Source of the DNA: Halomonas elongata DSM 2581
GTDB taxonomy: Bacteria > Pseudomonadota > Gammaproteobacteria > Pseudomonadales > Halomonadaceae
DNA: 64,000 nt
NCBI RefSeq assembly: GCF_000196875.2
Contig: NC_014532.2
Coordinates: forward strand, 1,984,001-2,048,000
Direction of reading: 5' to 3'
The notes beneath the pieces were generated by a model, which saw nothing but the letters and a program-made list of their open reading frames with translations, did no database searches and was not told the origin of the DNA. The translations under genes and the position numbers were made by a program. Below are positions 5,963 to 45,921 of the stretch, in pieces (the first letter of the stretch is position 1; each line of letters starts with the position of its first letter).

Positions 5963-8229
5963 GCGTCCTCCTGTTGCGCCTCGATGCTCAGCCCGACACG
6001 GCGCGCCAGCTCGATGAACCCCGGGAAGGACGTCGCCACATTGGCACAGTCATCGACGACGACCGCCTCGCTGGCCCGCAATGCCGCCACGGCGAAGGCC
6101 ATGGCGATACGGTGATCGCCCAGGCTGTCGACCCGACCGCCCCCGTAACTCGGCCCTTCGTCGCTCTGCCCTTCGTGACGGCCGACGATATCGATGCCGT
6201 CTTCATAAAGCCGGTGCTCGATGCCCAGTACCGCGAAACCGTCGGCCATCGCCTGGAGCCGATCGGACTCCTTGACCCGCAGCTCGGCGGCATCACGCAA
6301 GCGGGTCACGCCTTCGGCGTTGGCCGCGGCGACGAACAGTGCCGGGAATTCGTCGATGGCCAACGGCACCTGATCGACCGGGATGTCGATGCCCTTGAGC
6401 GGCGCATGACGGATGTGCAGATCGGCCACCGGCTCGCCGCCCACTTCGCGTTCGTTCTCCAGGCGCAGATCGGCGCCCATCAGCTTCAGGATATTGATCA
6501 CTCCGATGCGCGTCGGATTGACGCCGACATGCTCGAGCACCAGATCGGCGCCCGGCGTGATCGCTGCCGCCACCAGAAAGAAGGTCGCCGAGGAAATATC
6601 GGACGGCACATCGATGGGCGCCGCGGTGAGCTTGCCGCCGCCTTCGAGCCAGCAGGTATCGCCCTCGCGCTCCACCCGGTAACCGAAGCCACCGAGCATG
6701 CGCTCGGTATGATCGCGCGTCGGCGCCGGCTCACGCACCCGCGTCTCGCCCTCGGCATAAAGGCCGGCCAGCAACAGGCAGGACTTGACCTGGGCACTGG
6801 CCATCGGCATGTCGTAGGTGATGCCCTTGAGCGCCTGTCCGCCCCGCAGCTTGAGTGGCGGACGCCCGCCCTCGGCAGTCTCGATCACCGCTCCCATCTC
6901 GCGCAGCGGATCGGCGACCCGCCCCATGGGCCGCTTGGTCAGGGACACATCGCCGGTCAGTTCGGTATCGAATGCCTGGCCGGCCAGCAGACCGGCGAAG
7001 AGCCGCATGGCGGTCCCCGCATTGCCGACATACAGCGGCCCGGCTGGCGCCTTCAGGCCATGCAGGCCGACCCCGTGGATCGTCACCCGCCCCTGATGCG
7101 GCCCCTCGATGGCGACCCCCATCTCGCGAAACGCCTGCAGGGTAGCCAGACTGTCCTCGCCCTCGAGAAAGCCCGACACCTCGGTGATGCCTTCCGCCAG
7201 GGCACCGAGCATGATGGCACGGTGGGAGACCGACTTGTCGCCGGGCACGCGGATACGCCCCCGCACCTCGCCGCCGGGACCGGCCCGGTAGCGCAATGTC
7301 GCTTGTTCTTGCATCTGGTACTCCGCCTGATAACTGCTCTGGTTCAGTAGAGAATCGAAGTAGCGCCGGGCATGGCTGGCGCGATCGAAGGTCGACAGCA
7401 TGGCGTCGGCATCGCCGTCGGCGACGGCTTTCCGCAAGCGGGCGAGCCCCGCCTCGAAATCGTCGAGGGCGGCCAATACCGCTTGCTGATTGGCAGCAAA
7501 GATATCGCGCCACATCACGGGATCGCTGCCGGCGATACGGGTGAAGTCGCGAAAGCCGCCGGCGGCGTAACGGAATATCTCGAGCCGATCGTCCTGGCGC
7601 GCCAGGGTATCCACCAGCGAGAAGGCCAGCAGGTGCGGCAGATGACTGGTACGGGCCAGTACCTGGTCGTGGCGCTCCACCTCCATCTCCAGTACCTCGG
7701 CGCCGGTCGCCTGCCACAGGGCCCTTACCCGGTCCACGGCACTCTGGGCGGTGGTTGCCGCCGGCGTCAGGATCACCTTGTGCTGCGCATAGAGGTGCGG
7801 GTCGGACGACGCCACTCCGCTCTTCTCGGAGCCCGCAATGGGATGCCCCAGCACCAGGTTGGACGGCAGGCGACCGAAGGCAGCCTCGGCCGCCTCGCGG
7901 ATAGCCCCCTTGGTACTGCCGACATCGGTGATCACCAGCGACGGATCCTCGGCCACGCCCTGCTCCGCCAGCGTCTCGAGCACCTCGCGCATGGCCAGGA
8001 CCGGCACCGCCAGCACGATCATGCTGACCCCATCGAGCAGCCTTTCCAGGTGCGTATCGCCCCGCTCGATCAATCCCATCTCGACGCCCCGGGCGATCTC
8101 GTCGGCATCCGGATCGCAGGCCAGGATTTCCCCTTCGAAGCCAGCGTTACGCAAGGCGGCCGCCAGGGAGCCGCCGATCAAGCCAAGACCGACAATCAGC
8201 AGTCGGGACTCGTGAACCTCGTGCGCCAT
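5959..8229 (-). CDS. tyrA-aroA: Fused prephenate dehydrogenase / EPSP synthase (TyrA-AroA)
   Basis: Two enzymes of aromatic amino acid synthesis in one 756-residue chain. Residues 1-300 are the arogenate/prephenate dehydrogenase half, with the NAD-binding [17 protein letters not shown] motif at residues 14-30. Residues 315-756 are 3-phosphoshikimate 1-carboxyvinyltransferase, with [17 protein letters not shown] near residue 328 and the LVGNAGT-like and [15 protein letters not shown] signatures. The same fusion is known in Pseudomonas and relatives. It lies 2 bases after pheA and overlaps cmk by 4, placing the tyrosine, phenylalanine and common-pathway steps on one transcript. Confidence 0.95.
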
Positions 8230-9366: not shown

Positions 9367-9399
<33 letters not shown>

Positions 9400-9447
9400 A
9401 CCAGAAAATACTCCCGAAACTCCCGGGAACAAGACTTTTTGTTTTTT

Positions 9448-9513
9448 CTTACAGCTTATAGCTTACAGCTCCCGAACGAAGTTCGGACACTTACAGCTCC
9501 GGGCGGAGCCCGG
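9448..9513 (-). repeat. AGCTGTAAG repeats with two small hairpins after serC
   Basis: In the minus (serC) direction two units occur, each a 6-bp stem with a 3-base loop followed by GAGCTGTAAG. The stems are at 9472-9486 (CCGAAC/GTTCGG) and 9499-9513 (CCGGGC/GCCCGG). A third unit of the same plan lies after grxD at 38041-38080 with yet another stem sequence. The stem bases differ but pairing is kept. Confidence 0.75.
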
Positions 9514-9543
9514 TTATGGCTCCCGGTGCGGCCGGCTCGGGTT

Positions 9544-10659
9544 TCAGCCCCGACGTTTCTCGAAGTCGGCCATGAAGTCCACCAGGGCGTCCACGGCCGC
9601 TTCCGGCACTGCATTGTAGAGACTCGCGCGCATGCCACCGACGCTGCGATGCCCCTTGAGATTGAGCAGCCCCGCTTCCTCGCTCTCGGCCAGGAAGGCC
9701 TCGTCCAGGCGCGAGTCGGCCAGCACGAAGGGCACGTTCATGCGCGAACGATTGCCAGGCGCGATCGGATTGGAATAGAACCCGCTGGCGTCGATAGCCG
9801 CATAGAGCTTGGCCGCCTTGCGATCGTTGATCGCGCCCATGGCGTCCAGACCGCCGATGTCATTCTTCAGCCACTCAAACACCAGCCCCGCCAGGTACCA
9901 GCTGTAGGTGGCCGGCGTATTGATCATCGAGCCCGCCTCGGCCAGGGCCCGGTAACTGAACAGGCTGGGCATGTCGGCGCGCGCCCGGTCGAGCAGGTCA
10001 TCGCGCACGATGGCCACCACCAGACCGGCCGGCCCGATGTTCTTCTGGGCGCCGGCATAGATGACTCCGAAGCGGGACACATCCAGCGGCCCGGAAAGGA
10101 TGCTGGACGACATGTCACAGGCCAGCGGCACCTCGGCGCCATCGCGGCGGCGCAACCCTTCCGCAGCCCCGGGAATGTAATCGAACTCGAGGCCCCCGAT
10201 AGTCTCGTTGGCGGTGTAATGGAGGTAGGCAGCATCCTCGGACAGCTCGATGTCCGACTGCCGGGGCACGGCCGTATGACCATTGGCTTCGCTGGAAGCG
10301 GCCACCACCGCATGGCCGAACAGGTGGCGCGCCTCCTTGATGGCCTTGGCACCCCAGATGCCCGTCTGCACGAAGTTGGCGGTACCGCCGGCGCCCAGCA
10401 GGTTATAGGGCAAGGCGGCGAACTGCTGGGTCGCCCCGCCCTGGGTGAACAGCACCCGATAGTTGTCGGGGATGGCCAGCAGCTCTCGCAGGTCGCGCTC
10501 GGCCCGCTCGGCGATGGCCTCATAGTCGCTGGAGCGATGGCTCATCTCCATGACCGAGAGACCGAGCCCCCGGTAGTCCAGCAGTTCGTCGCGGGCTCGT
10601 GCCAGCACCGCTTCGGGCAGCGCCGCCGGTCCGGCGCAGAAATTGAAATGGCGTGTCAT
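9544..10659 (-). CDS. serC: Phosphoserine aminotransferase
   Basis: PLP enzyme that makes 3-phosphoserine from 3-phosphohydroxypyruvate and glutamate, and also acts in pyridoxal phosphate synthesis. The product is 371 residues and begins MTRHFNFCAGPAALPEAV. I chose ATG 10659 over the upstream GTG 10680 because family members start at this point and a GAGAGGA site precedes it. The PLP lysine lies in YAGAQKNIGPAG. The gene follows the gyrA stop by 17 bases and is probably co-transcribed with it. Confidence 0.95.
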   Translation of the reverse strand: MTRHFNFCAGPAALPEAVLARARDELLDYRGLGLSVMEMSHRSSDYEAIAERAERDLRELLAIPDNYRVLFTQGGATQQFAALPYNLLGAGGTANFVQTGIWGAKAIKEARHLFGHAVVAASSEANGHTAVPRQSDIELSEDAAYLHYTANETIGGLEFDYIPGAAEGLRRRDGAEVPLACDMSSSILSGPLDVSRFGVIYAGAQKNIGPAGLVVAIVRDDLLDRARADMPSLFSYRALAEAGSMINTPATYSWYLAGLVFEWLKNDIGGLDAMGAINDRKAAKLYAAIDASGFYSNPIAPGNRSRMNVPFVLADSRLDEAFLAESEEAGLLNLKGHRSVGGMRASLYNAVPEAAVDALVDFMADFEKRRG

Positions 10660-10676
10660 CAGCGTCGTGTGTCCTC

Positions 10677-13376
10677 TCACTCATCCGAGGGCTGGGTCGT
10701 ATCGCCCTCGCCTTCCTCGCTCTGGCCTGACTCGACCGCTGCGTCTTCCGGGTCGACCTCCGCGGCGTCCACTTCCTCCGGCTCGTCGATGCGCACCGTC
10801 TTGACCAGCGACTCGCTCTCGCCCAGGCGAATCAGCATCACGCCCTGGGTGTTGCGCGAGGAGATGGAAACTTCATCGACCCGGGTACGCACCAGGGTGC
10901 CCTTGTCGGTGATCAGCATCATCTCGTCGGAGGCGTAGACCTGCATGGCAGCCACCAGGGAGCCGTTACGCTCGCTGGTCTGCATGGCGATCACGCCCTG
11001 GCCGCCACGACCGCGCAGCGGGAATTCCTCGAGTCGGGTCCGCTTGCCATAGCCATTCTCCGAGGCCGTGAGGATATAGATCTGACCGGCATCGAGCGGC
11101 TCGGCGCTGTCCGCCGCCGCATCGTCCTGATCCTCGGCGTCGATGAGCTGACTGCGCGGGATGATCAGGCTGATCACCTCGGCACCATCGAGCAGGCGCA
11201 TGCCACGCACGCCGCGCGCCGTACGGCCCATGGCGCGAACGTTGGATTCATCGAAGCGGATGGCCTTGCCATTGGAAGAGAGCAGCATGGCGTGATCCGA
11301 GCCACTGGTGATGGCCGCCCCTACCAGGCGGTCGCCCTCTTCCAGGTCGATGGCGATCAGGCCCACGCTGCGCGGACGCGAGAACTGCGCCAGGCTGGTG
11401 CGCTTGACCGTGCCCTTGGCGGTGGCGAAGAAGATGTAGCTGTCCGGATCGTAATCGTGCACCGGCAGGATGGCGTTGATCGCCTCGTCCTCTTCCAGCG
11501 GCAGCAGGTTGACCAGCGGCTTGCCACGCGAGCCGCGGCTCGCCGCCGGCATCTCGTAGACCTTCAGCCAGTAGACCTTGCCGCGATTGGAGAACAACAG
11601 CACGGTATCGTGGGTCGAGGCCACCAGCAGGTGCTCGATGACGTCTTCGTCCTTCATGGACGTGGCCGACTTGCCCCGACCGCCGCGCCGCTGGGCCTGG
11701 TAATCGGAAAGCGGCTGGGTCTTGGCATAGCCCGAGCGCGACACCGTGACCACCATGTCCTCCTCGGCGATCAGGTCCTCGATGGACAGATCGAGATGAC
11801 TGGCCTGGATCTCGGTACGGCGCGTCTCGCCGAACTGGTCGCGCACGGCCGTCAATTCCTCGCGGATCACTTCCAGCAGGCGGTCGGCGGAGGCCAGGAT
11901 CGCGGTGAGCTCGGCGATCTTCTCCAGGATGCCGAGGTACTCGTCGAGCAGCTTCTCGGTTTCCAGGCCGGTCAGGCGATGCAGGCGCAACTCGAGGATC
12001 GCCTGGGCCTGGGCCGGCGAAAGCCGGTACTCCTTGCCCGCCGTGTCCAGGCCGAAACCTTCCTCCAGGTCCTCGGGCTTGCAGGAGGTGGCACCGGCGC
12101 GCTCCAGCATGCCGGTCACCTGACCGGGCGCCCAGTTCCTCTCGAGCAGCTTCTCCTTGGCCTCGTTGGCCGAGGGTGAAGCCTTGATCAGCTCGATCAC
12201 CTCGTCGATGTTGGAGATCGCGACCGTCAGGCCCTCGAGGATATGGCCACGCTCGCGGGCCTTCTTGAGCTCGAACAGGGTCCGGCGGGTCACCACCTCG
12301 CGACGGTGGCGAATGAAGGCCTCTAGCACCTCCTTGATGTTGAGCGTGCGCGGCTCACCGCCGTCCAGGGCCACCATGTTGATGCCGAAGACGTTCTGCA
12401 GTTGCGTCTGGGCGAACAGGTTGTTGACCACGACTTCGCCGGACTCGCCTCGCTTGACCTCGATGACGACCCGCAGCCCTTCCTTGTCGGACTCGTCACG
12501 CAGCTCGGCGATGCCCTCGATGCGCTTATCCTTGACCAGCTCGGCGATCTTCTCGATCAGGCGAGCCTTGTTCACCTGATAAGGCAGCTCGGTGACGATG
12601 ATGTGGTCGCGGCCGGTCTTCTCGTCATGCTCGATGGTGTGGCGGGCACGTACATAGATGCGGCCACGCCCGGTACGGTAGGCCTCGAGAATCCCGGCCC
12701 GACCGTTGATGATGCCTCCGGTGGGGAAATCCGGCCCGGGGATGTATTCCATGAGGTCATCGACGGAGAGCGTGTAGTCGTCGATCAGGGCCAGGCAACC
12801 GTCGATCACCTCCACCATGTTGTGGGGCGGAATGTTGGTCGCCATGCCCACGGCGATGCCCGAGGAGCCATTGACCAGCAGGTTGGGCAGCTTGGTCGGC
12901 AGCACATCCGGGATGCGCTCGGTGCCATCGTAGTTGTCGACCCAGTCGACGGTATCCTTTTCCAGATCCGCCAGCAGCTCGTGGGCCAGGCGCGCCATGC
13001 GCACCTCGGTATAACGCATGGCGGCCGCATTGTCGCCGTCGATGGAGCCGAAGTTGCCCTGGCCGTCGACCAGCACGTGGCGCATCGAGAAGTCCTGGGC
13101 CATGCGTACGATGGTGTCGTAGACGGCGCTGTCACCGTGGGGGTGATACTTACCGATCACATCGCCGACGACACGCGCCGACTTCTTGTAGGCCTTGTTC
13201 CAGTCATTGCCGAGCTCGTGCATGGCGTAAAGCACGCGCCGGTGCACGGGCTTCAGGCCATCGCGCACGTCGGGCAGCGCACGGCCGATGATCACACTCA
13301 TCGCGTAATCGAGGTACGACTGTTTGAGCTCGTCCTCGATGTTGACTGGCAGAATCTCTCTGGCGATGTCACCCAT
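10677..13376 (-). CDS. gyrA: DNA gyrase subunit A
   Basis: Breakage-rejoining subunit of gyrase, 899 residues from the start [18 protein letters not shown] prefer ATG 13376, which has AAGGA 12 bases before it, to the longer frame beginning at 13418. The quinolone-resistance region reads [17 protein letters not shown], with the sensitive-type Ser and Asp (positions 83 and 87 in E. coli numbering). The catalytic Tyr is in [15 protein letters not shown]. The C-terminal beta-pinwheel has a GQGVIAM GyrA-box-type segment, and the protein ends in a very acidic tail of about 40 residues, as in halophilic relatives. Confidence 0.97.
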
Positions 13377-23566: not shown

Positions 23567-24775
23567 TCAATTGGCCAGACGGAACCAGGGCCGCAGGCGG
23601 ATGCCCACCAACGAACCGGCGAAAGCACAGGCAAACCACACCCAGGCGTGTACGCTGGCCGAGGCCAGCCCGGAGAACAGCGCACCGATATTGCAACCGA
23701 AGCCCAGGCGAGCGCCATAGCCGAGCAGCAGACCTCCCACCACCGCAGCGAGGAAGGGGCGCCCCTGTGGCTTCTGTCGGCTGGCCTCGTTGAAGCGGCT
23801 CGCCATCCCGGCCGCCAGCATCGCTCCCAGCAGCAGGCCGAAATTCATGACCGACGGAATATTGACGAGCACCGAGTCGGACAGCGCCTGGGCAGGATAG
23901 GCCCAGCTCCAGAACTCGAACTGGCCCATGTCGACACCGACCGCCTGCAGCGCCTTGGCGCCCCACAGGTTGAAAGCAAAGGTAATCCCCCAGGGCGAGC
24001 CGCCGATGACCAGCGTCAGGGCATTGCCGACGGCCAGCACCAGGATGGCCCAGAGAAAGGGCCAGCGCCCCGTGAACAGGGCGCGCCACGCCCGTCCCTC
24101 GGTCGGGAGAAGGCGTAGCTCGCCGTGCTCGATTTCACCATGGGCGCGGCGTTCGATGCGGTTGACCCAGAGCGCCACCGCGCCCAGCCCCAGCCATTGA
24201 ATGGCGATGGCGCCGGTCACGCCGACACTGTCGATAAGGCTGATCGGGTCCACCGCCGGCAGGTCGAGCCACCAGGGCAGATGAAGAGAGCCGACCACCG
24301 CCCCGATGATGAAGAACAGCAACGTGACCAGCATCCGCAGATTGCCGGCCCCCACCGTGAACAGGGTCCCCGAGCCGCAGCCACCACCGAGCTGCATGCC
24401 GATGCCGAACAAGAAGGAGCCGACGACCAGCGAGGTGCCCACCGGGGCCACGGCACCGACCATGCCTTCGCGACCACTCCCCAGAAGAGGCACCATGATC
24501 AGGGCTGTCAGGGCGAACAGCAGTAGCTGAGCCCGCATGCCTGCCCCACGCTTCTTGGTCACCAGGTTGCGCCAGCCCGCCGTGAAACCGAAGGCGCCAT
24601 GGTAGAGCGCCACTCCCAGCAACCCGCCGATGGCGAACAACGCCAGCAGAAAAGGCGCGGTCTCCAGGTAGATCAGGCCTCCCAGGACCACCATGCCGAT
24701 CAGCGCCAGGCCCACCACGAAACGATCCACGCCCGCCTCACGCACCGGCGGCGCAGCACTTGCCACTTGACTCAT
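23567..24775 (-). CDS. YeeE/YedE-family sulfur-compound transporter
   Basis: Inner-membrane protein of 402 residues with about nine to ten hydrophobic segments. It has the conserved cysteine motifs of the YeeE/YedE (TsuA-like) family, one in QLGGGCGSGTLFTVGAG and one in LGFGCNIGALFSGL, each in an inner pore helix. Members import thiosulfate or related sulfur compounds through thiol relay. It is followed by the small Cys-rich membrane protein, and a secreted rhodanese gene lies 71 bases upstream on the same strand, which supports a sulfur-handling module. Confidence 0.85.
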   Translation of the reverse strand: MSQVASAAPPVREAGVDRFVVGLALIGMVVLGGLIYLETAPFLLALFAIGGLLGVALYHGAFGFTAGWRNLVTKKRGAGMRAQLLLFALTALIMVPLLGSGREGMVGAVAPVGTSLVVGSFLFGIGMQLGGGCGSGTLFTVGAGNLRMLVTLLFFIIGAVVGSLHLPWWLDLPAVDPISLIDSVGVTGAIAIQWLGLGAVALWVNRIERRAHGEIEHGELRLLPTEGRAWRALFTGRWPFLWAILVLAVGNALTLVIGGSPWGITFAFNLWGAKALQAVGVDMGQFEFWSWAYPAQALSDSVLVNIPSVMNFGLLLGAMLAAGMASRFNEASRQKPQGRPFLAAVVGGLLLGYGARLGFGCNIGALFSGLASASVHAWVWFACAFAGSLVGIRLRPWFRLAN

Positions 24776-24846
24776 GCGCTTCTCACCTTGATGAACTCCA
24801 TTGCGATGACACAGGCGAAAGGGATTGAAGGACTTCTGGCCATCGC

Positions 24847-25812
24847 TCAGCTACCCAGCCCGAAGAACTCGAGCACCTTGCCGAGGCCACGCTTGGCAAC
24901 GGCCAGGGGACGCTCCTCGTCCTGCGTCCACTCGGCCATCGAGCCATCGTAGAGGGATACATCGTCGAACCCGGCGATCTCACTCAGCACGAACCAGTCC
25001 GTCGCCGCCCAGTGCCCGGTATTGCAAAAGGATACCGTGGGCCTGTCGCCCTGAAGCCCGGCCTCACGAATGCGCGACTGGATCACGTCCTGACCCAGGT
25101 ACCAGGCCTGCTGGTTTTCCCCCAGCAGGGTCTGGTGCGGCAAATTGCGCGAACCGGGAATGGTGCCCGGCGCCGTAGCGGCCGGTGACTGGTTTTCACC
25201 GCGGAAGTAATCGGCCGGCCGGGCATCCACCAATTGGGAGCCCCGTTCACGCGCCGACGTCACTTCATCGGCCGTGGCCAGCAAGTCCTCGCGCAGTTGC
25301 CCCTGGAAGTCCGCGAATTCCGGACGCTCTGAGGTGCCGCTCGCCACCTCGTGTCCTTGCGCCTTCCAGCCGGCGAAGCCGCCATCGAGAATGGCCACCT
25401 CATCATGGCTCAGCACCTTGAACGTCCAGTAGACACGCGCCGCGCTGCCGAAATCCGTCGGTCCGGTACCTGCCGGCACGATGACGACGGTATCGTCGTT
25501 GCCGATGCCCAGGCCGCCAATCAGCCGTTCCAGGCTGGAGATCGGCGGCAGGAGGCCGGACACGCCATCCCGGGTCTCCCGCCAGCCATCATCGGTATAA
25601 CTGCTGTAGAGACTGCCGGGAATATGAGCCGCCTCGAAGCTGCCGCGATCGCCACCCTCATCGATACCGGACCGTACGTCCAGCACCACCAGGTTATCGT
25701 CGCCGAGCCGCTGAGCCAGCCAGTCGGCCGTCACCAGAGGCGGAACATCGGCCGCCAGGGCCGGTGACATGCCGAGCATCAGCAATGCCGTCGTCAACAT
25801 GGACCGCCACAT
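24847..25812 (-). CDS. Secreted tandem-rhodanese sulfurtransferase
   Basis: A 321-residue protein with a signal peptide (MWRSMLTTALLMLGMSPALA, cleavage after ALA). The first rhodanese domain (about 25-150) lacks an active cysteine; the second (about 170-300) has FCNTGHWAATDW with the catalytic Cys. It should move sulfane sulfur from a donor such as thiosulfate in the periplasm. ATG 25812 was chosen over an upstream GTG 25827 because GGAG lies 9 bases before it and the signal peptide starts there. The YedE-type transporter is encoded next on the same strand. Confidence 0.87.
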   Translation of the reverse strand: MWRSMLTTALLMLGMSPALAADVPPLVTADWLAQRLGDDNLVVLDVRSGIDEGGDRGSFEAAHIPGSLYSSYTDDGWRETRDGVSGLLPPISSLERLIGGLGIGNDDTVVIVPAGTGPTDFGSAARVYWTFKVLSHDEVAILDGGFAGWKAQGHEVASGTSERPEFADFQGQLREDLLATADEVTSARERGSQLVDARPADYFRGENQSPAATAPGTIPGSRNLPHQTLLGENQQAWYLGQDVIQSRIREAGLQGDRPTVSFCNTGHWAATDWFVLSEIAGFDDVSLYDGSMAEWTQDEERPLAVAKRGLGKVLEFFGLGS

Positions 25813-25951
25813 AATACTTGACTCCACTACTGGGGTTTAGGAGCGTCCATTATCCGACTCATGATCTCGACTTCAATATGTTTCAAGAGAATAAATTGTC
25901 AGACTCTCGGAAGGCATCGGCATAAGGAAAAGGTGGGATACTTCGCCGAGA

Positions 25952-26974
25952 TCACAACCCCTCGGCTTCCAGATGGTCGGCCAGGGTCTCGAGTATCGGC
26001 AGTCCCTGCACATCCGAGGGCAGCCAGGGTAGGTGCGGCCGCGGCAGGTGGGAGAATTCCTCGTCGATGCGCGCCAGGTAGCTCGCCTCCTGACGGCGCC
26101 GGGCGGCCAGAAATTCGCCATCGGCGTCCGCCGGCAACACCCGATTGACCAGCGCCGCCGCCACCGGAATGCCCGCCTGCTCGAGCGAACTCACCGCACG
26201 AGCGGTCTCGAGAATCGGCAAGCGTTCCGGGGTCAGCACGAACAGGAAGGCATTGGCCTCGGCATCCTCGATCTGCCGTCGCGCCCGATGAAAAAGACGA
26301 CGACGCGCCAGCAGCGTCTCGGCGATGTCCCGGGTGCGCGTATCCAGGCTGTCGCGCTTGCCTTCGGCGCCCTCGTCGAATGGCGAATCCAGGTCTCTGC
26401 CGGAGCCGGGCGTCAGGTGATCGAGCACCTTGCCCAACTGCTCGGACTTGCGATTGTGGGCCAGCAGGCCATCGGTCCAGGCCGCCATGGCCTCAGGCAG
26501 GCTCAGCAGACGCAGGGTGTGTCCGGTGGGTGCGGTATCGAAGATGATCAGGTCGTAGGGAGCTTCATCGTCGGTCATCAACCGTGAAAGACGCTCCAGC
26601 AAGGCCGCTTCCTGGGTGCCCGGCGATTGCCGCGACAGCCGCATCTGGCGCTCCAGTTCGTCCATCATGCCCGGCGCGGCATACCGGCGCATCTGCGCGG
26701 TCACCCGGGAGAGATGGGCCTCGACCTCGACATCCGGGTCGATCTCCATGGCGTCCAGACCCGGTCGAACACGGCGCGGCGTATCGCCCAGCGCGATATC
26801 GAAGACATCACCCAGGCTGTGAGCGGGATCCGTCGATGCCACCAGAACGCGACGACCACGACGCGCCGCCAGCACGCCAAGCGCGGCGGCGACCGACGTC
26901 TTGCCGACGCCGCCCTTGCCGCCCACCCACAGCAGGCGACGTTCGAGCAGTTCCCTCATCGACTCTTCAGGCAT
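25952..26974 (-). CDS. ArsA/GET3-like ATPase linked to CstA
   Basis: A 340-residue deviant-Walker ATPase: the P-loop GKGGVGKTSVAAALG is at residues 18-32, with DTAPTGHTLRLLSLPE (switch II) near residue 146. Family members are arsenite pump ATPases or carriers of membrane proteins. No arsenic genes are nearby. Instead the gene lies 9 bases after the Cys-Cys-ending small protein gene and is the third gene of the cstA operon. It probably serves assembly or regulation of the transporter; this is inference. Confidence 0.85.
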   Translation of the reverse strand: MPEESMRELLERRLLWVGGKGGVGKTSVAAALGVLAARRGRRVLVASTDPAHSLGDVFDIALGDTPRRVRPGLDAMEIDPDVEVEAHLSRVTAQMRRYAAPGMMDELERQMRLSRQSPGTQEAALLERLSRLMTDDEAPYDLIIFDTAPTGHTLRLLSLPEAMAAWTDGLLAHNRKSEQLGKVLDHLTPGSGRDLDSPFDEGAEGKRDSLDTRTRDIAETLLARRRLFHRARRQIEDAEANAFLFVLTPERLPILETARAVSSLEQAGIPVAAALVNRVLPADADGEFLAARRRQEASYLARIDEEFSHLPRPHLPWLPSDVQGLPILETLADHLEAEGL

Positions 26975-26983
26975 GATCGGCTC

Positions 26984-27277
26984 TCAGCAACAGCGGAAAT
27001 CGTCCAGCGGCGAGCGCTCCATACCCATCCGCTGGTGCCAGTCGTGGAAGCGCTCCATCAGCAATGGCTGCAGCTCCAGGGTGTAGTAGCCAACCGGATT
27101 CGGCATGCCCATCAATTCCGAGAAGACCAGCAGCATGAACAGGTCGTCTTCATCGCGACGTGCCCGGGCGATGGCGCCCCGATATGGCGCCGAATAGGCT
27201 TCCTCGGCGAAGTGACGGGCCCGCCCCAGCCAGCGCCGCCAGCGCTGGGCCAAGGCATCATCCCGAGCATCGCGCAT
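26984..27277 (-). CDS. Cory-CC-star-type small protein (ends Cys-Cys-stop)
   Basis: A 97-residue soluble protein. ATG 27277 has a strong GGGAGGAG site that sits at the very end of cstA. It contains an Arg/Trp-rich helix, a hydrophobic DLFMLLVFSELMGMPNP segment, then GYYTLELQPLLMERF, and ends DDFRCC followed by TGA. That ending and the neighbourhood fit the family named cory-CC-star. YbdD/YjiX, the usual CstA companion, also ends in Cys-Cys and has a GMP..Y segment, so the two may be functionally equivalent. Biochemical role unknown. Confidence 0.75.
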   Translation of the reverse strand: MRDARDDALAQRWRRWLGRARHFAEEAYSAPYRGAIARARRDEDDLFMLLVFSELMGMPNPVGYYTLELQPLLMERFHDWHQRMGMERSPLDDFRCC

Positions 27278-27291
27278 CGTCTCCTCCCGCC

Positions 27292-28962
27292 TTATTTGGC
27301 TGCCTGGGCTTCGCCGCGCAGACGCTTGAGTGCCGCGGCGCATTCCATGGCCACCAGCACCGAGGCAATCAGCACCACGATATCCAGCCCCAGCAGGAAA
27401 TAGTTGCCTGCCTCGTAGAAGCTTCTCAACTGGGCCAGCAGCGCCAGCACCGTCACGATGACCAAAAAGACCAGAGGCACCAGGGTATAGCCGACGGGGC
27501 GCCCCTTGCGCACCAGCATCACCGAGACGACCAGCAGCGTAAGCCCCGCCAGCAGCTGGTTGGTGGTGCCGAACAGCGGCCAGATGATCAGCCCGCCCGA
27601 ACCATCGGCGCCGGCCCCGAAGGCCAGGATCAGGCAGGAGCCCACCGCCAGCAGCGTCGCGACCGCCGGTTTCTTCATCCAGGCCAGGTCATAGATCTCG
27701 CCCCACTCCTGGAAGATATAGCGCTGCAGCCGCAGGCCGGTGTCCATGGTGGTACCGGCGAACAGCGCCGCCATCACCGTCAGCAGCGTGGCCGCCGTGG
27801 CTTCCGGAATGCCGATGCCATTGTGGATGATGAAGGCGCCACCCTCGACGAAGGCATTCACGCCGCCCTGGCCGAAGGCATCGTACATCGCCTGCCAGTC
27901 ACCGAGGCTGGCGAAACCGGCGGTCGCCGCCAGGATCGCGCCCAGCGCCAGCATGCCCTCGCCCACGGCACCGAAGTAGCCGACGAAGCGCACATCCTTC
28001 TCGCTGTTGAGCTGCTTGGAGGTGGTGCCCGAGGCGACCAGGCCATGGAACCCCGAAATGGCGCCGCAGGCGATGGTCACGAACAACAGCGGGAACAGCG
28101 AGGGCGTCCCGGCCGGCACATTGCTGTTGATGCCGGGTGCGACGATCTCGGGGTTGAGCACCGCAATGGCGCCGTAAAGGATGATCAGGCCGATGAACAA
28201 CTGCAGGCCATTGATGTAGTCGCGAGGCTGCAAAAGCATCCAGACCGGCAGCAGCGAAGCGATGGCGGCATAGCCGAACAGGATCAGAATCCATATCGCA
28301 TTGCCCGGCATGAACCCAACCTCGGCAGGCATCTGCACGGGCACCGACGGCCCGATGCCGATCAGCGCATAGAGCGCCAGCACACCCAGCAGCGAGACCA
28401 GGCCAAGCCCGATGATGCGCCGGTAGATCAACTGGCCGATGATCAGCGCCACGACAATGGCCCCCCACACGGGTACCACGGCCGAGGGAAAGTCCATCAT
28501 CAAGCCGGCGATCACCACCGCGAAGACCGCGTTGACCATCAGCAGCAGCAGAAAGATGACGATCATGAAGATGCTTCGCGCCCGCGCGCCGACCACCTCA
28601 CCGGTGAGCGCCCCCACGGAACGCGCCCGATTGCGCACACTGGCCCAGACCGCACCGGCATCGTGAATCCCGGCGAAGAAGATGGTCCCCAGTACGACCC
28701 AGAGAAAGGCCGGCAGCCAGCCCCAGATCACCGCGATGGCCGGCCCCACGATGGGCGCCGCCCCGGCGACCGAGGTGAAATGGTGTCCCCAGAGCACATA
28801 GCGATTGGTGGGGACAAAATCGACGCCGTCCTCGAACTCGTGGGCAGGCGTCTGGAAATCAGCGGTCAGGCGGAAGACCTTCTCGGCGATGAACTTCGAG
28901 TAGACGAGATACCCGAGTCCCATCGCGCCAAGGCCCACGACCAGAAGCAGCACGGCACTCAT
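27292..28962 (-). CDS. cstA: CstA-family carbon starvation / pyruvate-peptide transporter
   Basis: Large inner-membrane carrier of 556 residues with some fifteen or more hydrophobic segments. The family signatures are visible: NRYVLWGHHFTSVAGAAPIVGPAIAVIWGWLP (positions about 58-89) and the GTMDTGLRLQRYIFQEWGE region. E. coli relatives take up pyruvate or peptides in starvation. It is the first gene of a three-gene minus-strand operon with a CC-terminal protein and an ArsA-like ATPase. A palindrome at 29044-29060 upstream may be an operator. Confidence 0.92.
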   Translation of the reverse strand: MSAVLLLVVGLGAMGLGYLVYSKFIAEKVFRLTADFQTPAHEFEDGVDFVPTNRYVLWGHHFTSVAGAAPIVGPAIAVIWGWLPAFLWVVLGTIFFAGIHDAGAVWASVRNRARSVGALTGEVVGARARSIFMIVIFLLLLMVNAVFAVVIAGLMMDFPSAVVPVWGAIVVALIIGQLIYRRIIGLGLVSLLGVLALYALIGIGPSVPVQMPAEVGFMPGNAIWILILFGYAAIASLLPVWMLLQPRDYINGLQLFIGLIILYGAIAVLNPEIVAPGINSNVPAGTPSLFPLLFVTIACGAISGFHGLVASGTTSKQLNSEKDVRFVGYFGAVGEGMLALGAILAATAGFASLGDWQAMYDAFGQGGVNAFVEGGAFIIHNGIGIPEATAATLLTVMAALFAGTTMDTGLRLQRYIFQEWGEIYDLAWMKKPAVATLLAVGSCLILAFGAGADGSGGLIIWPLFGTTNQLLAGLTLLVVSVMLVRKGRPVGYTLVPLVFLVIVTVLALLAQLRSFYEAGNYFLLGLDIVVLIASVLVAMECAAALKRLRGEAQAAK

Positions 28963-29975: not shown

Positions 29976-30347
29976 ATGGCCCGTGTGCTGGTGGTCGACG
30001 ATGAGCCCAACATAGTGTTGTCGCTGGAATTTCTGATGGAACAGGCCGGCTTCGAGGTTACCACCGCCGAGGACGGCGAGACCGCACTGCGTCTCATCGA
30101 CGAAGGCGCTCCCGACCTGGTGCTGCTCGACATCAGCCTGCCCGGCATCGGAGGCTTCGAGGTACTCGAACGTCTGCGCAGCGATCCCGCTCACCGGCAT
30201 CTTTCGATCATCATGCTCACCGCCCACGGCCGTGAAGTGGAACGCGAAAAGGGGCTGGCACTGGGCGCTGACGACTATATCACCAAGCCCTTCTCGACCC
30301 GGACTCTGGTCGAAAAGGTCCGAGCCCTGCTCGATGGGGGCACCTGA
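29976..30347 (+). CDS. Stand-alone response-regulator receiver protein
   Basis: A 123-residue CheY-like receiver with no output domain. The acidic pocket is in VVDDE (residues 7-10), the phospho-acceptor is D52 (LLDISLP), and the switch residues are T82 and K104 (TKPF). The stop overlaps the start of the next gene (TGATG), so it is translated together with the PAS-exonuclease protein, and the SSS-type kinase is the last gene of the same operon. Because it lacks a DNA-binding part, it must signal through protein contact or act as a phosphate sink. Confidence 0.9.
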
Positions 30348-32395
30348 TGTCCTGGCGCGCGTCAGGACTCCCCCGCCGCCAGCGCCTGGTGGGCCTATGG
30401 CTGCTGTTGAGCGGCATCGGCCTGCTCGGCGGCGCACTGTTCGCCGCCTGGCTGGACAACCTCTACCAGCCCCAGGGCCTGGCCCGGCTGATCCTGTGGC
30501 TCGGCTGCTTCTCGGGTGGCATCACCCTGTTCGCCGCCGGCCTGGTCCTCGAGCGCTGGCTGTTCACCCCCTTGCGCCACCTGCAAGGCCAACTGGCCCG
30601 ACTGGCCGCCAATCCCGATGTCCCGGATGTCTCGCCACCGGAAGGCTGGCTGCGGGGCCTGGGCCCCGACCTGGAGCGTGTTCACGCCGCCTGGCGAGAT
30701 GACCGGCAACGGCTGGCACATGCCCACGCCGATGGCGCACGAGAAGCGACGCGGGTTCGCCAGCGGCTCGAGGTCCTGCTGCAGACCCTGGATACGCCGC
30801 TGCTGCTCTGCGATCGCCATCACCGCCTGCTGCTCTACAACCAGGCTGCCGAGCGACTCTTCGCCGCCCATCCCGGCCTGGGACTGGGCAAGGAACTCGG
30901 CAACCTGCTGCCGGCGAAGGGGCTGGTCGATGTCATGGCCTGCCTGCCCGACGACGGCAGCGGTCGCGAGGTGCTGATTCCCCACGATGACCACTGGCTG
31001 CACGTCGGACTGCGTCGGGTCTCCGGCGATGAGACGCTGCTGACGTTGAGCGACGCCACCCTGACCTGGGCCCGCGAAGTCGGCCCGCAGGCCGAACTCG
31101 ACAACCTTCTGCCGGCATTGCGCCGCCATGGCGCCGGCCTGATCAGCTCCGCCGACGCCCTGGCCCATCTCCGCGGCGACGATTCGCCTGAGCTGCGCCG
31201 GCGCCTGGAAGCCGTCATCGACGAAGAAGGCGATGCCCTGGGCTCCAGCCTGGAACGGCTGGGGACAACGCATGATGCCTTGCGACGCCAGGGCGAGCGT
31301 CTGGTGCCGCTCTGGTCCAACGATCTCTGGGCGGCGCTCGGCGAGCGACTGGCCACGCCGAGCGTCACGCCCGTGGGCATGCCCGCCTGGCTCAAGGGCG
31401 ACGCCCCGGTACTGCTCGAAGTCCTCGCCAGCCTGCTCGAGACGCTCGCCGAGCATACCGGCCTAGACGCCTTCGACGGCGAGCTGTGCCTCGGCAACCG
31501 CCGGGTCTATCTGGATCTCTGCTGGCACGGCGAAGCGCTTGCCCAGCGTCACCTCGACACCTGGCGGCATCGCCGCCTCGAGCGCCTTCCCCACTCGCCC
31601 AGCGCCGAGGACGTGCTGCGCCAGCACGCCAGCGATGTCTGGAGCCTCAGTGACGGCGACTGGGCCAGGCTGCGCCTGCCCTTGCCGGCCTTGTCCCGCA
31701 CTGCCGCCCCGCGTCCCGAGAACCCGCCACGCCCGGAATTTCATGACTTCGATATCGCCAAGCTGCCGGCTCCGGACACCGACCTTGCCAGCCGTGCCCT
31801 GCACGACCTGGAAATCGTCGCCTTCGACACCGAGACCACCGGCCTGGCCCTGCGTGAGGGAGACCGACTGATCAGCCTGGGCGCCTGCCGTATCGTCAAT
31901 GGGCGCCTCCTGGCCGACGAAACCTTCGAGCAGCACGTCAATCCGCAACGACCGATTCCCTCGGCCAGCACCGCCATCCACGGCCTTGGCGATCAGGATG
32001 TCGAAAACGCGCCGACGGCCGAACAGGTCCTGCCGCGTTTTCGCGACTATGTCGGCAGCGCCGTGCTGCTGGCCCACAACGCCGCCTTTGACATGCTGGC
32101 CATCCGGCCCGGCCCCGGGACCGATGCCTTCGACATGCCGGTGCTCGATACGCTCTTGCTGTCACGCGCCCTCGACCCGGGCCTGGAGGGTCACGACCTC
32201 GACAGCCTGGCAAAGCGTTACGGCCTGCGCTTTCCTCCCGGTACCCGTCACACGGCGCTGGGCGATGCCAGGGTCACCGCCCGACTGTGGCTGGCCCTGC
32301 GGCGGCGACTCGAGGCCAGGGGTATCGAGCGCCTGTCGGATGCCCTGGTCTTCCAGGCCGGCGCCCTCGACCGGGAGGATGCCTGCGCCCCATGA
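30347..32395 (+). CDS. Membrane PAS / degenerate-kinase protein fused to a DEDDh 3'-5' exonuclease
   Basis: A 682-residue fusion. Two membrane helices (about 12-35 and 47-68) are followed by a helical linker, a PAS-like domain (about 145-240), and a region (about 250-450) that looks like a worn histidine-kinase core with no H-box or nucleotide-binding motifs. The C-terminal DnaQ-like exonuclease (487-665) has complete catalytic motifs: FDTETTG with D494 and E496, HNAAFD with D582, and HTALGD with H635 and D640. The nuclease is therefore probably active and held at the membrane. It is coupled by overlap to the genes on both sides. Confidence 0.82.
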   Translation: MSWRASGLPRRQRLVGLWLLLSGIGLLGGALFAAWLDNLYQPQGLARLILWLGCFSGGITLFAAGLVLERWLFTPLRHLQGQLARLAANPDVPDVSPPEGWLRGLGPDLERVHAAWRDDRQRLAHAHADGAREATRVRQRLEVLLQTLDTPLLLCDRHHRLLLYNQAAERLFAAHPGLGLGKELGNLLPAKGLVDVMACLPDDGSGREVLIPHDDHWLHVGLRRVSGDETLLTLSDATLTWAREVGPQAELDNLLPALRRHGAGLISSADALAHLRGDDSPELRRRLEAVIDEEGDALGSSLERLGTTHDALRRQGERLVPLWSNDLWAALGERLATPSVTPVGMPAWLKGDAPVLLEVLASLLETLAEHTGLDAFDGELCLGNRRVYLDLCWHGEALAQRHLDTWRHRRLERLPHSPSAEDVLRQHASDVWSLSDGDWARLRLPLPALSRTAAPRPENPPRPEFHDFDIAKLPAPDTDLASRALHDLEIVAFDTETTGLALREGDRLISLGACRIVNGRLLADETFEQHVNPQRPIPSASTAIHGLGDQDVENAPTAEQVLPRFRDYVGSAVLLAHNAAFDMLAIRPGPGTDAFDMPVLDTLLLSRALDPGLEGHDLDSLAKRYGLRFPPGTRHTALGDARVTARLWLALRRRLEARGIERLSDALVFQAGALDREDACAP

Positions 32396-32577
32396 ATGCC
32401 CCGCACCGCAAGGAGCGCCTCGTCGCCCTGATCGCCCTGGCCACGGCACTGTTCACGCCGCCGCTGCTGCTGATCGCCGACCGGCTCGACGGTGGCCTGC
32501 CGCTCTACCTGTTCCTGGCCTGGGGTGTCGTCATCGCCCTGATGGCCTGGCTGATGGAAGACCGTCGCGGGGAGTGA
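32392..32577 (+). CDS. Small two-helix membrane protein of the SSS-kinase operon
   Basis: A 61-residue protein that starts inside the stop of the exonuclease fusion (ATGA overlap) and ends 6 bases before the kinase gene. It has a basic start (MNAPHRKERL), two membrane helices (about 10-27 and 34-52) and a charged end (MEDRRGE). Similar tiny membrane proteins often precede sodium-solute symporters (the YjcH/DUF4212 setting), so it may assist the symporter-like half of the kinase. No family assignment is possible from sequence alone. Confidence 0.75.
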   Translation: MNAPHRKERLVALIALATALFTPPLLLIADRLDGGLPLYLFLAWGVVIALMAWLMEDRRGE

Positions 32578-32583
32578 AGGCCC

Positions 32584-35337
32584 ATGAGAGACGATGTCGT
32601 GGTCCTGGCGATCGCCTTCGGTTACCTGGCGCTGCTCTTCGTCATCGCTGCCTGGGGGGATCGCCGCGCCGAGCAGGGACGCTCGGTGATCGGTTCCCCT
32701 ACCGTCTATGCCCTGTCCATTGCCGTCTACTGCACCGCCTGGACCTTTTATGGCAGTGTCGGCCGCGCCGCCGAGGCCGGACCGGGTTTCCTGCTGATCT
32801 ACCTGGGGCCGACCCTGGCGATGCTCATGGCGCCGCTGGTGATCCGCAAGATGGTGCGCATCGCCGCCACTCACCGCATCACCTCCATCGCCGACTTCAT
32901 CAGCGCCCGCTATGGCAAGAGTGCCGGACTCGGCGCTCTGGTCGCCGTGATCGCCCTGATCGGCACCACGCCCTATATCGCCCTGCAGCTCAAGGCCATC
33001 ACCCTGAGCCACGCCGTGCTGGTCGACTACGCGCCCGAAAGCCCCATGGCCACCGCCGAAGCGAGCTTCTGGGCCGACCGCTCCTTCTGGGTGGCGCTGG
33101 TGCTGGCCGTGTTCATCATTCTCTTCGGCACCCGCCACCTGGACGCCAGCGAGCGCCATGAGGGCATGGTGGCCGCCATCGCCTTCGAATCGCTGGTCAA
33201 GCTCGCCGCCTTCCTGGCGGTGGGCATCTTCACCGTTTTCGTGCTCTATCAGGGGCCCGGCGATCTTTTCCGGCAGGTCGCCGCCACCCCGGCACTCACC
33301 GATGCCCTGAGTCTTGAGTCGGTTCCCGGTGGCGCCCTTGGCTGGGTCGGCATGCTGGTACTGGCCTTCCTGGCCTTTCTCGGCCTGCCCCGCCAGTTCC
33401 AGGTGCTGGTGGTGGAAAATGTCGACGAGCGGCACATCCAGCGCGCCGCCTGGCTGTTCCCGCTCTACCTGCTGGTCATCAACCTCTTCGTGATTCCCAT
33501 CGCCATGGCCGGGCTGCTCGGGGGCACCGGCGAGGACCCGGACAGCTTCGTGCTGACCCTGCCCATGGCGGCAGGCGTCGATGGCCTGCCGGTACTGGTC
33601 TTCATCGGTGGCCTATCGGCCGCCACCGGCATGATGATCGTCGAGACCATCGCCCTGTCGACCATGGTCAGCAACCAGCTGGTGATGCCCCTGCTGCTGC
33701 GTTCGCGTCATCTGCACCGAGGCCAGTCGGGCTCCCTGGCCAGCCGCATCTTGGGCATCCGGCGCATCGCCATCCTCGGCATCCTGCTGCTGGGCTATAG
33801 CTATCACGCCCTGATCGGCGACGCCTACAGCCTGGTCACCATCGGCCTGGTGTCCTTCGCCGCTGTCGCCCAGTTCACTCCCGCCCTGCTGATCGGGCTC
33901 TACTGGCGCAGCGCCAACCGGCTCGGCGCAGGACTGGGCATGACCACCGGCATTCTCATCTGGGCCTGGACCCTGTTGATCCCCGGCTTCGCCCAATCGG
34001 GCTGGCTGAACGCCGACCTGCTCACCCAAGGCCCCTTCGGCATCGACTGGCTGCGTCCCTACGCACTGTTCGGCCTGGAAGGCTGGGATATCTACACTCA
34101 CTCGCTGTTCTGGAGTCTCAGCGCCAACATCGGCCTGCTGGTCGGCGCGTCGCTGTTCAGCCGAGCCTCACCGCTGGAACAGACCCAGGCGGCACTGTTC
34201 ACCGAAGCCCTGCATCCTCGCCTCGACCAGAGCTCGCTATGGCGCGGCCATACCCTGCGGGGCGAATTGCGTGCCCTGCTCGATCGTTACCTCGGCACCG
34301 CCGCCACCCAGCGCGTCTTCGCCGACCACTCCCCCGACGACGCCGACGATCAGTCGGCCTCCACGGCCCTGGTCGCCCGGGCAGAACAGGCCCTGGCCGG
34401 CGCCCTGGGCAACGCCTCGGCCCGGGTGCTGATCGATTCGGTGGTTCGCGGCGAGGCACTGGATCTGGACTCGATCCTGCGCATCCTCGACACCACCTCA
34501 GAGACGCTGGAAATGAACCGGCGCCTCGAACAGAAATCCCGTGAACTGGCGCGTATCGGACAGGAGCTGCGCGAGGCCAATGACCGACTGCGCGAACTCG
34601 ATCGCCTCAAGGACGAGTTCGTGGCCATGGTCAGCCATGAGCTGCGCACGCCCCTGACCTCGATCCGCGCCTTCGCCGAGATTCTGCGCGACAACCGCGA
34701 ACTGCCCGAACAGCGACGCGAACACTTCCTGGATGTGGTGGTGAGAGAGAGCCAGCGACTCTCGCGCTTGATCGAGGAAATCCTCGATCTGGCACGCCTG
34801 GAAAGCGGTCGCCTGACGCTGGAACCACAGCGTCTCGACCTGGTGCCCCTGACCCATCAGGCCCTGGAAGCCATACATCGCCTTCAGGAGGAACGCGGCA
34901 TCGCCCTGGAAACCGCCTTCGAGGTCGATACCGCCGAAGTGATCGGCGACCCGGACCGCTTGGAGCAGGTCATCATCAATCTGATCGACAATGCCGGCAA
35001 GTTCGCCGATGCCGAGACTCCCCGGATCTCGCTGCACCTGACACGCCACAAGCACGGTTTCCGTCTCGCCGTGGCCGACAACGGCCCGGGCATCGACGAA
35101 GCGGAGCGTGAACGGGTCTTCGAGAAATTCCACCAGCTTCCCCACGCCGACGTCGGCACCATGCGAAGCCGACCGCGCGGCAGCGGACTCGGCCTGCCCA
35201 TCAGCCGGGGCATCGTCGCCCATCTCGGCGGCCGGCTATGGATCGAGGATGCCGCCGAACTCGGCGGCGCCTGCCTGGTGATGGAACTGCCCGAGGCACC
35301 GAGCGAGGACCGGAATAAGAACGAGACGGAGGCGTGA
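32584..35337 (+). CDS. Sodium-solute-symporter-type sensor histidine kinase (CrbS-like)
   Basis: A 917-residue hybrid of transporter and kinase. Residues 1-500 carry about thirteen membrane helices of the SSS fold, followed by a STAC-type domain (about 560-640), a short coiled coil, the phospho-acceptor H-box MVSHELRTPLTSIRAFAEIL (about 680), and an ATPase domain with the N-box IINLIDNAG, DNGPGID and a GSGLGLPIS G-box. CrbS-type kinases respond to acetate. The expected CrbR regulator with a DNA-binding domain is absent; only the single-domain receiver is present in the operon. Confidence 0.9.
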   Translation: MRDDVVVLAIAFGYLALLFVIAAWGDRRAEQGRSVIGSPTVYALSIAVYCTAWTFYGSVGRAAEAGPGFLLIYLGPTLAMLMAPLVIRKMVRIAATHRITSIADFISARYGKSAGLGALVAVIALIGTTPYIALQLKAITLSHAVLVDYAPESPMATAEASFWADRSFWVALVLAVFIILFGTRHLDASERHEGMVAAIAFESLVKLAAFLAVGIFTVFVLYQGPGDLFRQVAATPALTDALSLESVPGGALGWVGMLVLAFLAFLGLPRQFQVLVVENVDERHIQRAAWLFPLYLLVINLFVIPIAMAGLLGGTGEDPDSFVLTLPMAAGVDGLPVLVFIGGLSAATGMMIVETIALSTMVSNQLVMPLLLRSRHLHRGQSGSLASRILGIRRIAILGILLLGYSYHALIGDAYSLVTIGLVSFAAVAQFTPALLIGLYWRSANRLGAGLGMTTGILIWAWTLLIPGFAQSGWLNADLLTQGPFGIDWLRPYALFGLEGWDIYTHSLFWSLSANIGLLVGASLFSRASPLEQTQAALFTEALHPRLDQSSLWRGHTLRGELRALLDRYLGTAATQRVFADHSPDDADDQSASTALVARAEQALAGALGNASARVLIDSVVRGEALDLDSILRILDTTSETLEMNRRLEQKSRELARIGQELREANDRLRELDRLKDEFVAMVSHELRTPLTSIRAFAEILRDNRELPEQRREHFLDVVVRESQRLSRLIEEILDLARLESGRLTLEPQRLDLVPLTHQALEAIHRLQEERGIALETAFEVDTAEVIGDPDRLEQVIINLIDNAGKFADAETPRISLHLTRHKHGFRLAVADNGPGIDEAERERVFEKFHQLPHADVGTMRSRPRGSGLGLPISRGIVAHLGGRLWIEDAAELGGACLVMELPEAPSEDRNKNETEA

Positions 35338-44675: not shown

Positions 44676-45770
44676 TCAGTATTCGCCGAGCAGCGCTTCC
44701 AGCTTGAAGGTGCTGGCCGACAGTTCTCCCGAGCTCATGGCCGGCGTTTCCGGCACCTCGACGGTAGGCCATGCTTCCATGGCCGTATCATAGGCCGCCA
44801 TCAATTCATCGTAGCTTTCATCGCCTGACGCCCGGTACAAGTCAGCATGCTGCTCGAGCAGTCCGCGGGCGGCACGCATATGGCCGAGTCCCGATCGATA
44901 CTCGGCCGTATCCACGAAAGCACCGTCTTCGACGGCCTCATCGTACTCGCCCACCGCCTGGCGCAGCAGGGCGAGCTGGACCCGGCTCTGGAAAGCCACG
45001 TCGTCGCGCAATGACGCATCCACTCCCTGCATGGCCGACTGGATAGCGCCTTGTGCCTCGTCATGAGATGACTGTAGCTCACCCCATTCATCTCCATTCC
45101 GAGCCTTGGTGGACAAGGATCCCAGGGAGTCCTCGAAGGGCTCTACACCACGGTTCTCGAAGGCCGGTTCCAATGTTTCGTAACGCTGCGTCGAGCGAGC
45201 GAAGAGAGAACGGGAATCCTCGGCTTCTCCATCGCGATATAACTCGCTGGCTACCGAAAGCTGACCCTGCATCATGGCGAGGCTGGTGTAGTAGACGCCG
45301 GGATTGCTGGCATCAGTGTGGAAGCCGCCTTCACCGCCTTCGCCACCTTCACCGCCTTCGCCACCTTCGCCACCTTCGCCACCGGCAGAAGTATCCAGAT
45401 AAGCGAAAACCGCGAAGGGAGACGGTCCTTCGGCGTGGTGACCGGCTTCGCCGCCCTCGCCACCTTCACCGCCTTCTCCTCCTTCAGCGTGGTGACCGGC
45501 TTCGCCGCCCTCGCCACCTTCACCGCCTTCTGCTCCTTCAGCATGGTGACCGACTTCGCCGCCCTCGCCACCTTCACCGCCTTCGCCTCCTTCGGCATGG
45601 TGACCGGCTTCGCCGCCCTCGTGGCTTGCGGCATCCGCAGGCTTCTGATGCTCAATCCGTGAATCTGCCCCGTCGATGGCCTGGTCGTCTGCCCAGGCGG
45701 CCGTGCTGGCACCCAGCAGCATGGAAGCCCCGACCCCTACCCAGATTCTTGTTCGTGTATTGTTTGACAT
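44676..45770 (-). CDS. Secreted Gly/Glu/His-repeat protein, possible metal binder
   Basis: A 364-residue exported protein. ATG 45770 gives a signal peptide (basic NNTRTR, hydrophobic core, AAWA cleavage near residue 27). Residues 51-115 are tandem 18-residue units containing GHHAEG and runs of GGE, with His-His pairs at 57, 75, 93 and 111, exactly 18 apart. Residues 130-149 are a pure GGE run. Residues 155-364 form a helical domain (MMQGQLSVASELYRDGEAED). His-rich acidic repeats suggest binding of Fe, Zn or Ca in the periplasm. I do not recognise the family. It is divergent from a PiuC-type dioxygenase gene. Confidence 0.75.
   Translation of the reverse strand: MSNNTRTRIWVGVGASMLLGASTAAWADDQAIDGADSRIEHQKPADAASHEGGEAGHHAEGGEGGEGGEGGEVGHHAEGAEGGEGGEGGEAGHHAEGGEGGEGGEGGEAGHHAEGPSPFAVFAYLDTSAGGEGGEGGEGGEGGEGGEGGFHTDASNPGVYYTSLAMMQGQLSVASELYRDGEAEDSRSLFARSTQRYETLEPAFENRGVEPFEDSLGSLSTKARNGDEWGELQSSHDEAQGAIQSAMQGVDASLRDDVAFQSRVQLALLRQAVGEYDEAVEDGAFVDTAEYRSGLGHMRAARGLLEQHADLYRASGDESYDELMAAYDTAMEAWPTVEVPETPAMSSGELSASTFKLEALLGEY
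45324..45620 (-). repeat. 54-base tandem coding repeats with nested 9-base units
   Basis: At 45426-45620 about three and a half 54-base units encode the 18-residue His-His repeats, each containing 9-base GGE units. At 45324-45383 only the 9-base units remain. The low complexity opens long false reading frames on both strands. Confidence 0.85.
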
Positions 45771-45921
45771 ACGGTCTCCTGATTTCACGGTGTCACCATG
45801 CCGCGGACCTGCCCATGATGGCGAGTCCACGGGTTCCTAGTGTAGATTGCCGGGACCACCCAGGTAACACAAATCATTCACATTCATTGCCAGTCAACGG
45901 TTTCAGCGAGGAGACGGCCCC

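Follow-up and report, generated by a model that had tools for sequence, protein, structure and literature searches.

The closest described counterparts of the locus considered here are the CstA-CstX-ArsA operons of Castillo & Saier (2010; PMC2963123), where 26 CstA proteins occur with ArsA and 24 with CstX. In the accessible parts of that study, co-evolution of the components is argued for and ArsA is proposed to energise CstA through CstX; Chromohalobacter, Alkalilimnicola and Idiomarina appear in its clusters 17 and 18, and the words YbdD, YjiX and selenoprotein are absent from the accessible text.

A second relative is the CstA-YbdD pair of Escherichia coli, in which a CstA-family transporter likewise has a small companion, encoded beside cstA and with two terminal cysteines, but the transporter is of the long type and the predicted helix layout of the small protein differs. 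We know of no ATPase partner of this pair. According to the accessible text of one study, pyruvate uptake in E. coli stands at 13% without cstA and at 20% without ybdD, indirect effects being allowed for by the study itself (PMC5847655). The arsenite-pump ATPase ArsA, finally, shares with the ATPase of the locus its membership of the P-loop family and the DTAPTGHT motif, whereas the latter is a single-domain protein, falls outside the ars clade (100/98) and lacks the metal cysteines of ArsA.

The open-licence PMC literature yielded no experiment on the joint working of the three genes, and nothing under the name ‘cory-CC-star’, on YjiX with BtsT or on Get3/ArsA with CstA. Work on such loci would show whether ATPases of the ArsA/Get3 type are able to regulate or power secondary transporters, and why small partners ending in Cys-Cys are kept by CstA transporters. 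This kind of operon is already published, and the window (i.e. the whole stretch of 64,000 nucleotides of Halomonas elongata that was analysed) contains an intact copy of it; what is new here is the pattern of separation and loss of the genes, the pairing of small-protein family with CstA type, and a cysteine test that bears on metal hand-over.

Layout of the locus

Inspection of the open reading frames confirmed a set of three minus-strand genes, coding for a short CstA, a small protein ending in Cys-Cys and an ATPase (table 1). The tight packing described in an earlier, sequence-only reading of the window is borne out, with intergenic gaps of 14 and 9 bases and a ribosome-binding-like stretch between the TAA of cstA and the ATG of the small gene; for the latter, a start at 27277 is better than that of the ORF list at 27343, which falls inside cstA. 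The FRCC end and the internal GMPNPVGYY of the small protein, noted in the same reading, are also present, and its remark that no arsenic genes lie nearby agrees with the absence of arsenic-resistance families from the family lists returned for the nine window proteins scanned, the ATPase itself aside.

Table 1. Features of the three-gene locus, with positions in the window
Feature	Positions	Strand	Basis or remark
cstA, short type, 556 aa	27292..28962	-	PF02554 3.3e-136, two stretches
Gap between cstA and small gene, 14 bases, with GGGAGGAG ribosome-binding-like stretch	27278..27291	-	Sequence reading
cory-CC-star / CstX small protein, 97 aa, ends RCC	26984..27277	-	NF041419 8.4e-40
Cys-Cys-stop codons of small gene	26984..26992	-	ATPase start not inside here, gap +9
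Single-domain ArsA/GET3-type ATPase, 340 aa, no cysteine	25952..26974	-	TIGR00345 4.1e-79; tree

The H. elongata genome (4.06 Mb, one contig) contains a single CstA gene, which the profile matches in two pieces within one frame. ArsA-type genes of full length also number one, the matches at five other places covering 33-42 profile positions only; a profile search gave no YbdD-family match in the genome. As in the operons of Castillo & Saier, in so far as their text is accessible, the three genes stand together, the ArsA protein is a single domain of approximately 330 residues, the small protein has approximately 90, and the scanned neighbours include no ars genes (PMC2963123). At the Alkalilimnicola and Idiomarina loci retrieved here a cory-type gene occupies the place of CstX, and we infer that CstX and cory-CC-star are the same protein. 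One difference is that the CstX of the archaeal cluster 14 is called a single-TM protein in the accessible text (PMC2963123), whereas the cory proteins studied here have no TM helix by hydropathy or in the structural model.

The three proteins

The window CstA matches PF02554 above the cut-off (455.7 bits; profile positions 2-352 and 408-560 in the genome search), and its score with NF011590, the equivalog for the pyruvate/proton symporter CstA of the E. coli type, is 226.3 bits against a cut-off of 1188. Short and long CstAs, the latter of about 700 aa, are 32-34% identical and, in a tree of 47 chosen rows, are set apart at 100/100; cysteine 299 is invariant in both (35/35 short and 10/10 long rows). 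No match was returned when the PDB was searched with the CstA sequence. At the Natronospirillum locus (L084) a second short CstA follows directly after the ATPase (9391-11094), giving the order cstA-cory-ATPase-cstA. A genome of the window's own family (G400, locus L170) has a diverged triad, and the CstA of this triad is placed with that of Cytobacillus at 100/100, which suggests horizontal transfer.

The small protein scores 134.7 bits with the NCBIfam family cory-CC-star (NF041419), for which the curated cut-off is 80. Every one of the 126 cory rows found, duplicates included, ends in Cys-Cys, while none of the 772 ORFs of at least 200 aa from 80 loci and the window does so. In the 33 of these 126 rows that passed an 80% identity filter and were aligned, D45, G57, P61, E68, L69, P71, H78, W80, H81, R83, G85, P90, C96 and C97 are invariant. 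The AlphaFold2 model (mean pLDDT 83.2, pTM 0.52) consists of a helix at 2-55, a loop, a helix at 63-83 and a free tail. Because of this predicted helical hairpin and of a 19-residue hydropathy maximum of 1.15 (1.51 among all 126 rows), the small protein is read as probably soluble or peripheral, without a TM helix. Searches of the PDB with the cory sequence and with the model fold returned no match, and a search of viral contigs gave no relative. Among the 90 longer loci with a measured gap, 14 have the ATPase start codon within the Cys-Cys-stop codons, which suggests translational coupling; the starts were chosen by script, and for the two of these 14 loci that were viewed the RefSeq annotation is in agreement.

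The sequence-only reading had seen in the small protein an echo of YbdD. The analogy stands as regards the Cys-Cys end, which is found in 27 of the 30 YbdD-family proteins aligned (from 32 loci), CPC being found in the other three (L112, L113 and L197), and as regards the place beside cstA. The supposed common GMP..Y segment is mostly missing, G-x-P-D-Y occurring in only 8/30. Homology of the two families is likewise unsupported: Pfam gave no PF04328 (Sel_put/YbdD) hit to the small protein, and profile comparison by hhalign gave a probability of 1.1%, from alignments that are shallow (Neff 2.5 and 4.4) and might hide a distant relationship. The YbdD model has three helices (pLDDT 74.4, pTM 0.51), and its sequence retrieved one PDB row, at E 2.9.

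The ATPase belongs to the GET3/ArsA/TRC40 family (TIGR00345, 266.2 bits against a cut-off of 135; PF02374 also matches), and with the arsenical pump-driving ArsA model TIGR04291 it scores 146.9 bits against a cut-off of 650. In a tree of 48 chosen rows, 32 of them operon-linked ATPases, one group consists of the ars-type ArsA halves (100/98) and a second of the archaeal rows (100/98), whereas the linked ATPases make up one side of a modestly supported branch (72/89; 74% of 200 bootstrap trees). Before this tree was built, two rows of great length (L208, L209) and the duplicates L003, L006 and L007 had been removed; in an earlier tree with the two long distant rows the linked ATPases did not form one group, three changes being needed. 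An arsenite role is rejected on the score far under the cut-off and the position in the tree; the grouping with arsenite-pump proteins that would have spoken against the sequence-only reading is not what the tree gives.

Conservation and co-occurrence

When species genomes were scanned, 314 relatives were obtained, the best 80 of which, and therefore near kin, were kept. In all 80 loci the order and orientation cstA-cory-ATPase is maintained, which speaks against a chance arrangement, one gene being split over frames in each of L011 and L064; the range extends from Halomonadaceae to Idiomarina, Pseudomonas, Rheinheimera and Marinomonas. The triad is likewise present in all 69 of these loci that have full 8-kb flanks, but since farther neighbours also recur in them (nth in 47, a response regulator in 42, an exonuclease in 42, a kinase in 40, an rnfB-like gene in 37, metG in 27 and a GST gene in 26), the synteny is in part due to near kinship. 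The cory gene also occurs on six plasmid records, and the three viewed (Pseudochrobactrum, Paracoccus and Cytobacillus) carry the full triad; in that of Cytobacillus (L150) an extra gene of 95 aa, annotated as hypothetical, separates cstA and cory (7633-7920).

Genome sampling was carried out at the level of the order (174 genomes), the class (274) and the phylum (398), some genomes being common to the samples, and CstA matches were sorted by pattern. In the order sample, cory is found in 16 genomes, YbdD in 13 and a CstA-family gene in 42, i.e. the long type (about 700 aa) in 13, the short type (about 560-600 aa) in 19, with both in G431, and only more distant matches (482-528 aa) in 11. The 13 genomes with long CstA, one of which (G362) was assigned from pieces at contig edges, are the same 13 that have YbdD, and in 12 of them YbdD lies near the long cstA on one contig by coordinates. 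Short CstA is found in all 16 cory genomes, and cory in 16 of the 19 genomes with short CstA. Small-protein family is in this way paired with CstA type, YbdD with long (13/13) and cory with short (16/19). Mutual exclusion of cory and YbdD at the genome level is not shown by these data: the overlap, 1/174 (G431), is near the chance estimate of 1.2, and the split is by CstA type.

When the window ATPase was used as query, matches at E 1e-45 or better fell in exactly the 16 cory genomes and in none of the other 158 of the order sample; the match in G424 has a stop inside the matched stretch, and the matches that follow, none better than 5e-29, belong to G330, G426, G340 and G303. In the class sample cory is found in six genomes, and a strong ATPase match in five of these and in none of the other 268; in the phylum sample cory is found in 7/398. 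In all but one of the sampled genomes that have the small protein the ATPase accompanies it, and in the order sample the two are found only with short CstA. The exception is G171 (100% complete), which has CstA and cory and gave no ATPase match at E 0.001 in a single-protein search, which a diverged ATPase could escape.

By coordinates, cstA and the cory-ATPase pair are neighbours in 11 of the 16 cory genomes of the order sample. The other five, which are all the cory genomes sampled from family f212, keep cory and the ATPase as an intact pair, with cstA on another contig, so that the closest tie of the ATPase is to the small protein. Three further genomes have short CstA without cory or a strong ATPase match: G325 and G436 gave no ATPase match at E 0.001, and G340 (86% complete) weak matches only. 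In the CstA tree these three and the five f212 CstAs form one clade (100/100) inside the operon-linked CstAs, with a weakly supported fork within it (85/50), and the simplest history is one separation followed by joint loss of cory and ATPase. The proposal that the three genes act as one functional unit therefore needs qualifying. It agrees with the 80 intact loci and with the coincidence of the genes in the same 16 genomes, but f212, the genomes G325, G436 and G340, and G171 speak against a strict unit; the separation of genes that had been named as evidence against it does occur, though in one lineage of the order sample (5/16 genomes, one family).

A possible mechanism and its rivals

The reading that we favour, with about as much confidence as doubt, is that a secondary transporter of the CstA family has a cytosolic partner of its own, made up of two parts, and that ATP controls the assembly or activity of the transporter rather than each step of transport. 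The small protein, with its predicted helical hairpin and invariant HxWH...CC end, would bind the cytosolic side of CstA and be required by it, as YbdD seems to be by CstA in E. coli. The ATPase, working by means of its P-loop and switch motifs, would form a dimer and would bind the small protein rather than CstA, loading it onto the transporter or releasing it. ATP would in this way govern assembly or activity, while the transport steps themselves would not be ATP-driven.

The published alternative, that CstA becomes an ATP-driven importer by virtue of the ATPase, with CstX as the link between them, as ArsA acts for ArsB (Castillo & Saier, 2010), appears unlikely. Apart from the argument from co-evolution and operon structure in the accessible text (PMC2963123), the co-occurrence of cory, ATPase and short CstA fits it equally well. 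However, related short CstAs persist without the ATPase, and in one genome (G171) the small protein does so too. E. coli CstA and BtsT are not known to need such an ATPase. BtsT is called an H+/pyruvate symporter in the accessible text of PMC7730263. Given the separation in f212, the CstAs without both genes and G171 without the ATPase, an assembly or activity factor acting through the small protein is, by inference, more likely than an obligatory energiser. The apparent dispensability of the ATPase comes, at the level of sequence, from one distant genome and one nested clade, in which a diverged ATPase could be missed, and the CstAs concerned may work differently. These natural losses make the 2010 proposal directly testable.

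A metal or redox switch, in which the Cys-Cys tail and HxWH bind metal or form a disulphide that the ATPase inserts or reads, is improbable. The invariance of the tail with H78, H81, C96 and C97, the absence of such an end from the larger ORFs and the invariant CstA cysteine speak for it, but the linked ATPases have no conserved cysteine. At the columns which we take to be the ArsA metal cysteines, Cys occurs in 10/10 ars rows at one and in 5/10 at another, and in 0/32 linked ATPases; the archaeal CxxC pair, presumably the Get3 zinc site, is present in 6/6 archaeal rows and in 0/32 linked ones. At a further column Cys is found in 5/10 ars rows and 1/32 linked rows; the most Cys-rich column of the linked ATPases reaches 5/32, and 67 of 124 ATPase rows are entirely free of cysteine, as is the window ATPase. 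The accessible text of PMC2963123 likewise states that single-domain ArsA proteins do not conserve the ArsA cysteines. A thiol hand-over to the ATPase like that from ArsD to ArsA is therefore unlikely, and the metal- or redox-gated assembly through the ATPase suggested by the sequence-only reading is not supported by these proteins; the tail itself might have a role with metal or in redox, though hardly one shared with ATPase thiols.

A Get3-like insertion factor, whose hydrophobic client for delivery to the membrane would be CstA or the small protein, is very improbable, for although the best solved relatives of the ATPase are the single-domain 3zq6 and 3ug6 (entered as arsenical pump ATPases, and which we take to be archaeal Get3), ahead of the two-domain arsenite ArsA 1f48, the linked ATPases lack the archaeal CxxC, and neither the window protein nor any of the 126 cory rows shows a tail anchor by 19-residue hydropathy.

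A wider and rather doubtful generalisation would be that CstA transporters as a rule use a small cytosolic partner ending in Cys-Cys, drawn from two families that are unrelated or unrecognisably diverged (YbdD alone for long, cory for short), and that an ArsA-type ATPase was recruited for cory to give an ATP-controlled secondary transporter. This mode of control was not met in the accessible text of the literature surveyed.

Neighbouring genes

Between the triad and nth, on the minus strand (23567-25827), lie genes for a rhodanese/sulfurtransferase-like protein and a YedE-like sulphur transporter. They were left out of the proposed unit, since rhodanese-like and YedE-like neighbours are each found in only 1 of the 69 full-flank loci. 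Sulphur genes lie near the triad in two of the three annotated plasmid loci: the Paracoccus plasmid has sulphate transport genes upstream, and downstream of the triad of Cytobacillus (L150, 10783-14526) are genes for a metal-sensitive regulator, TusA, DsrE, an MBL-fold protein and a TauE-type protein, which possibly hint at a sulphur link.

On the plus strand of the window (29976-35337) are genes for a response regulator that consists of a receiver only, for a protein containing a DnaQ-type exonuclease domain, and for a sensor kinase whose N-terminal part is long and hydrophobic. Relatives stand no more than 8 kb from the triad in 40-42 of the 69 loci; these genes might, as a guess, represent a regulator of carbon status. 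Farther away, at 44676-45830 on the minus strand, is an ORF with long GGEGGEGGE repeats.
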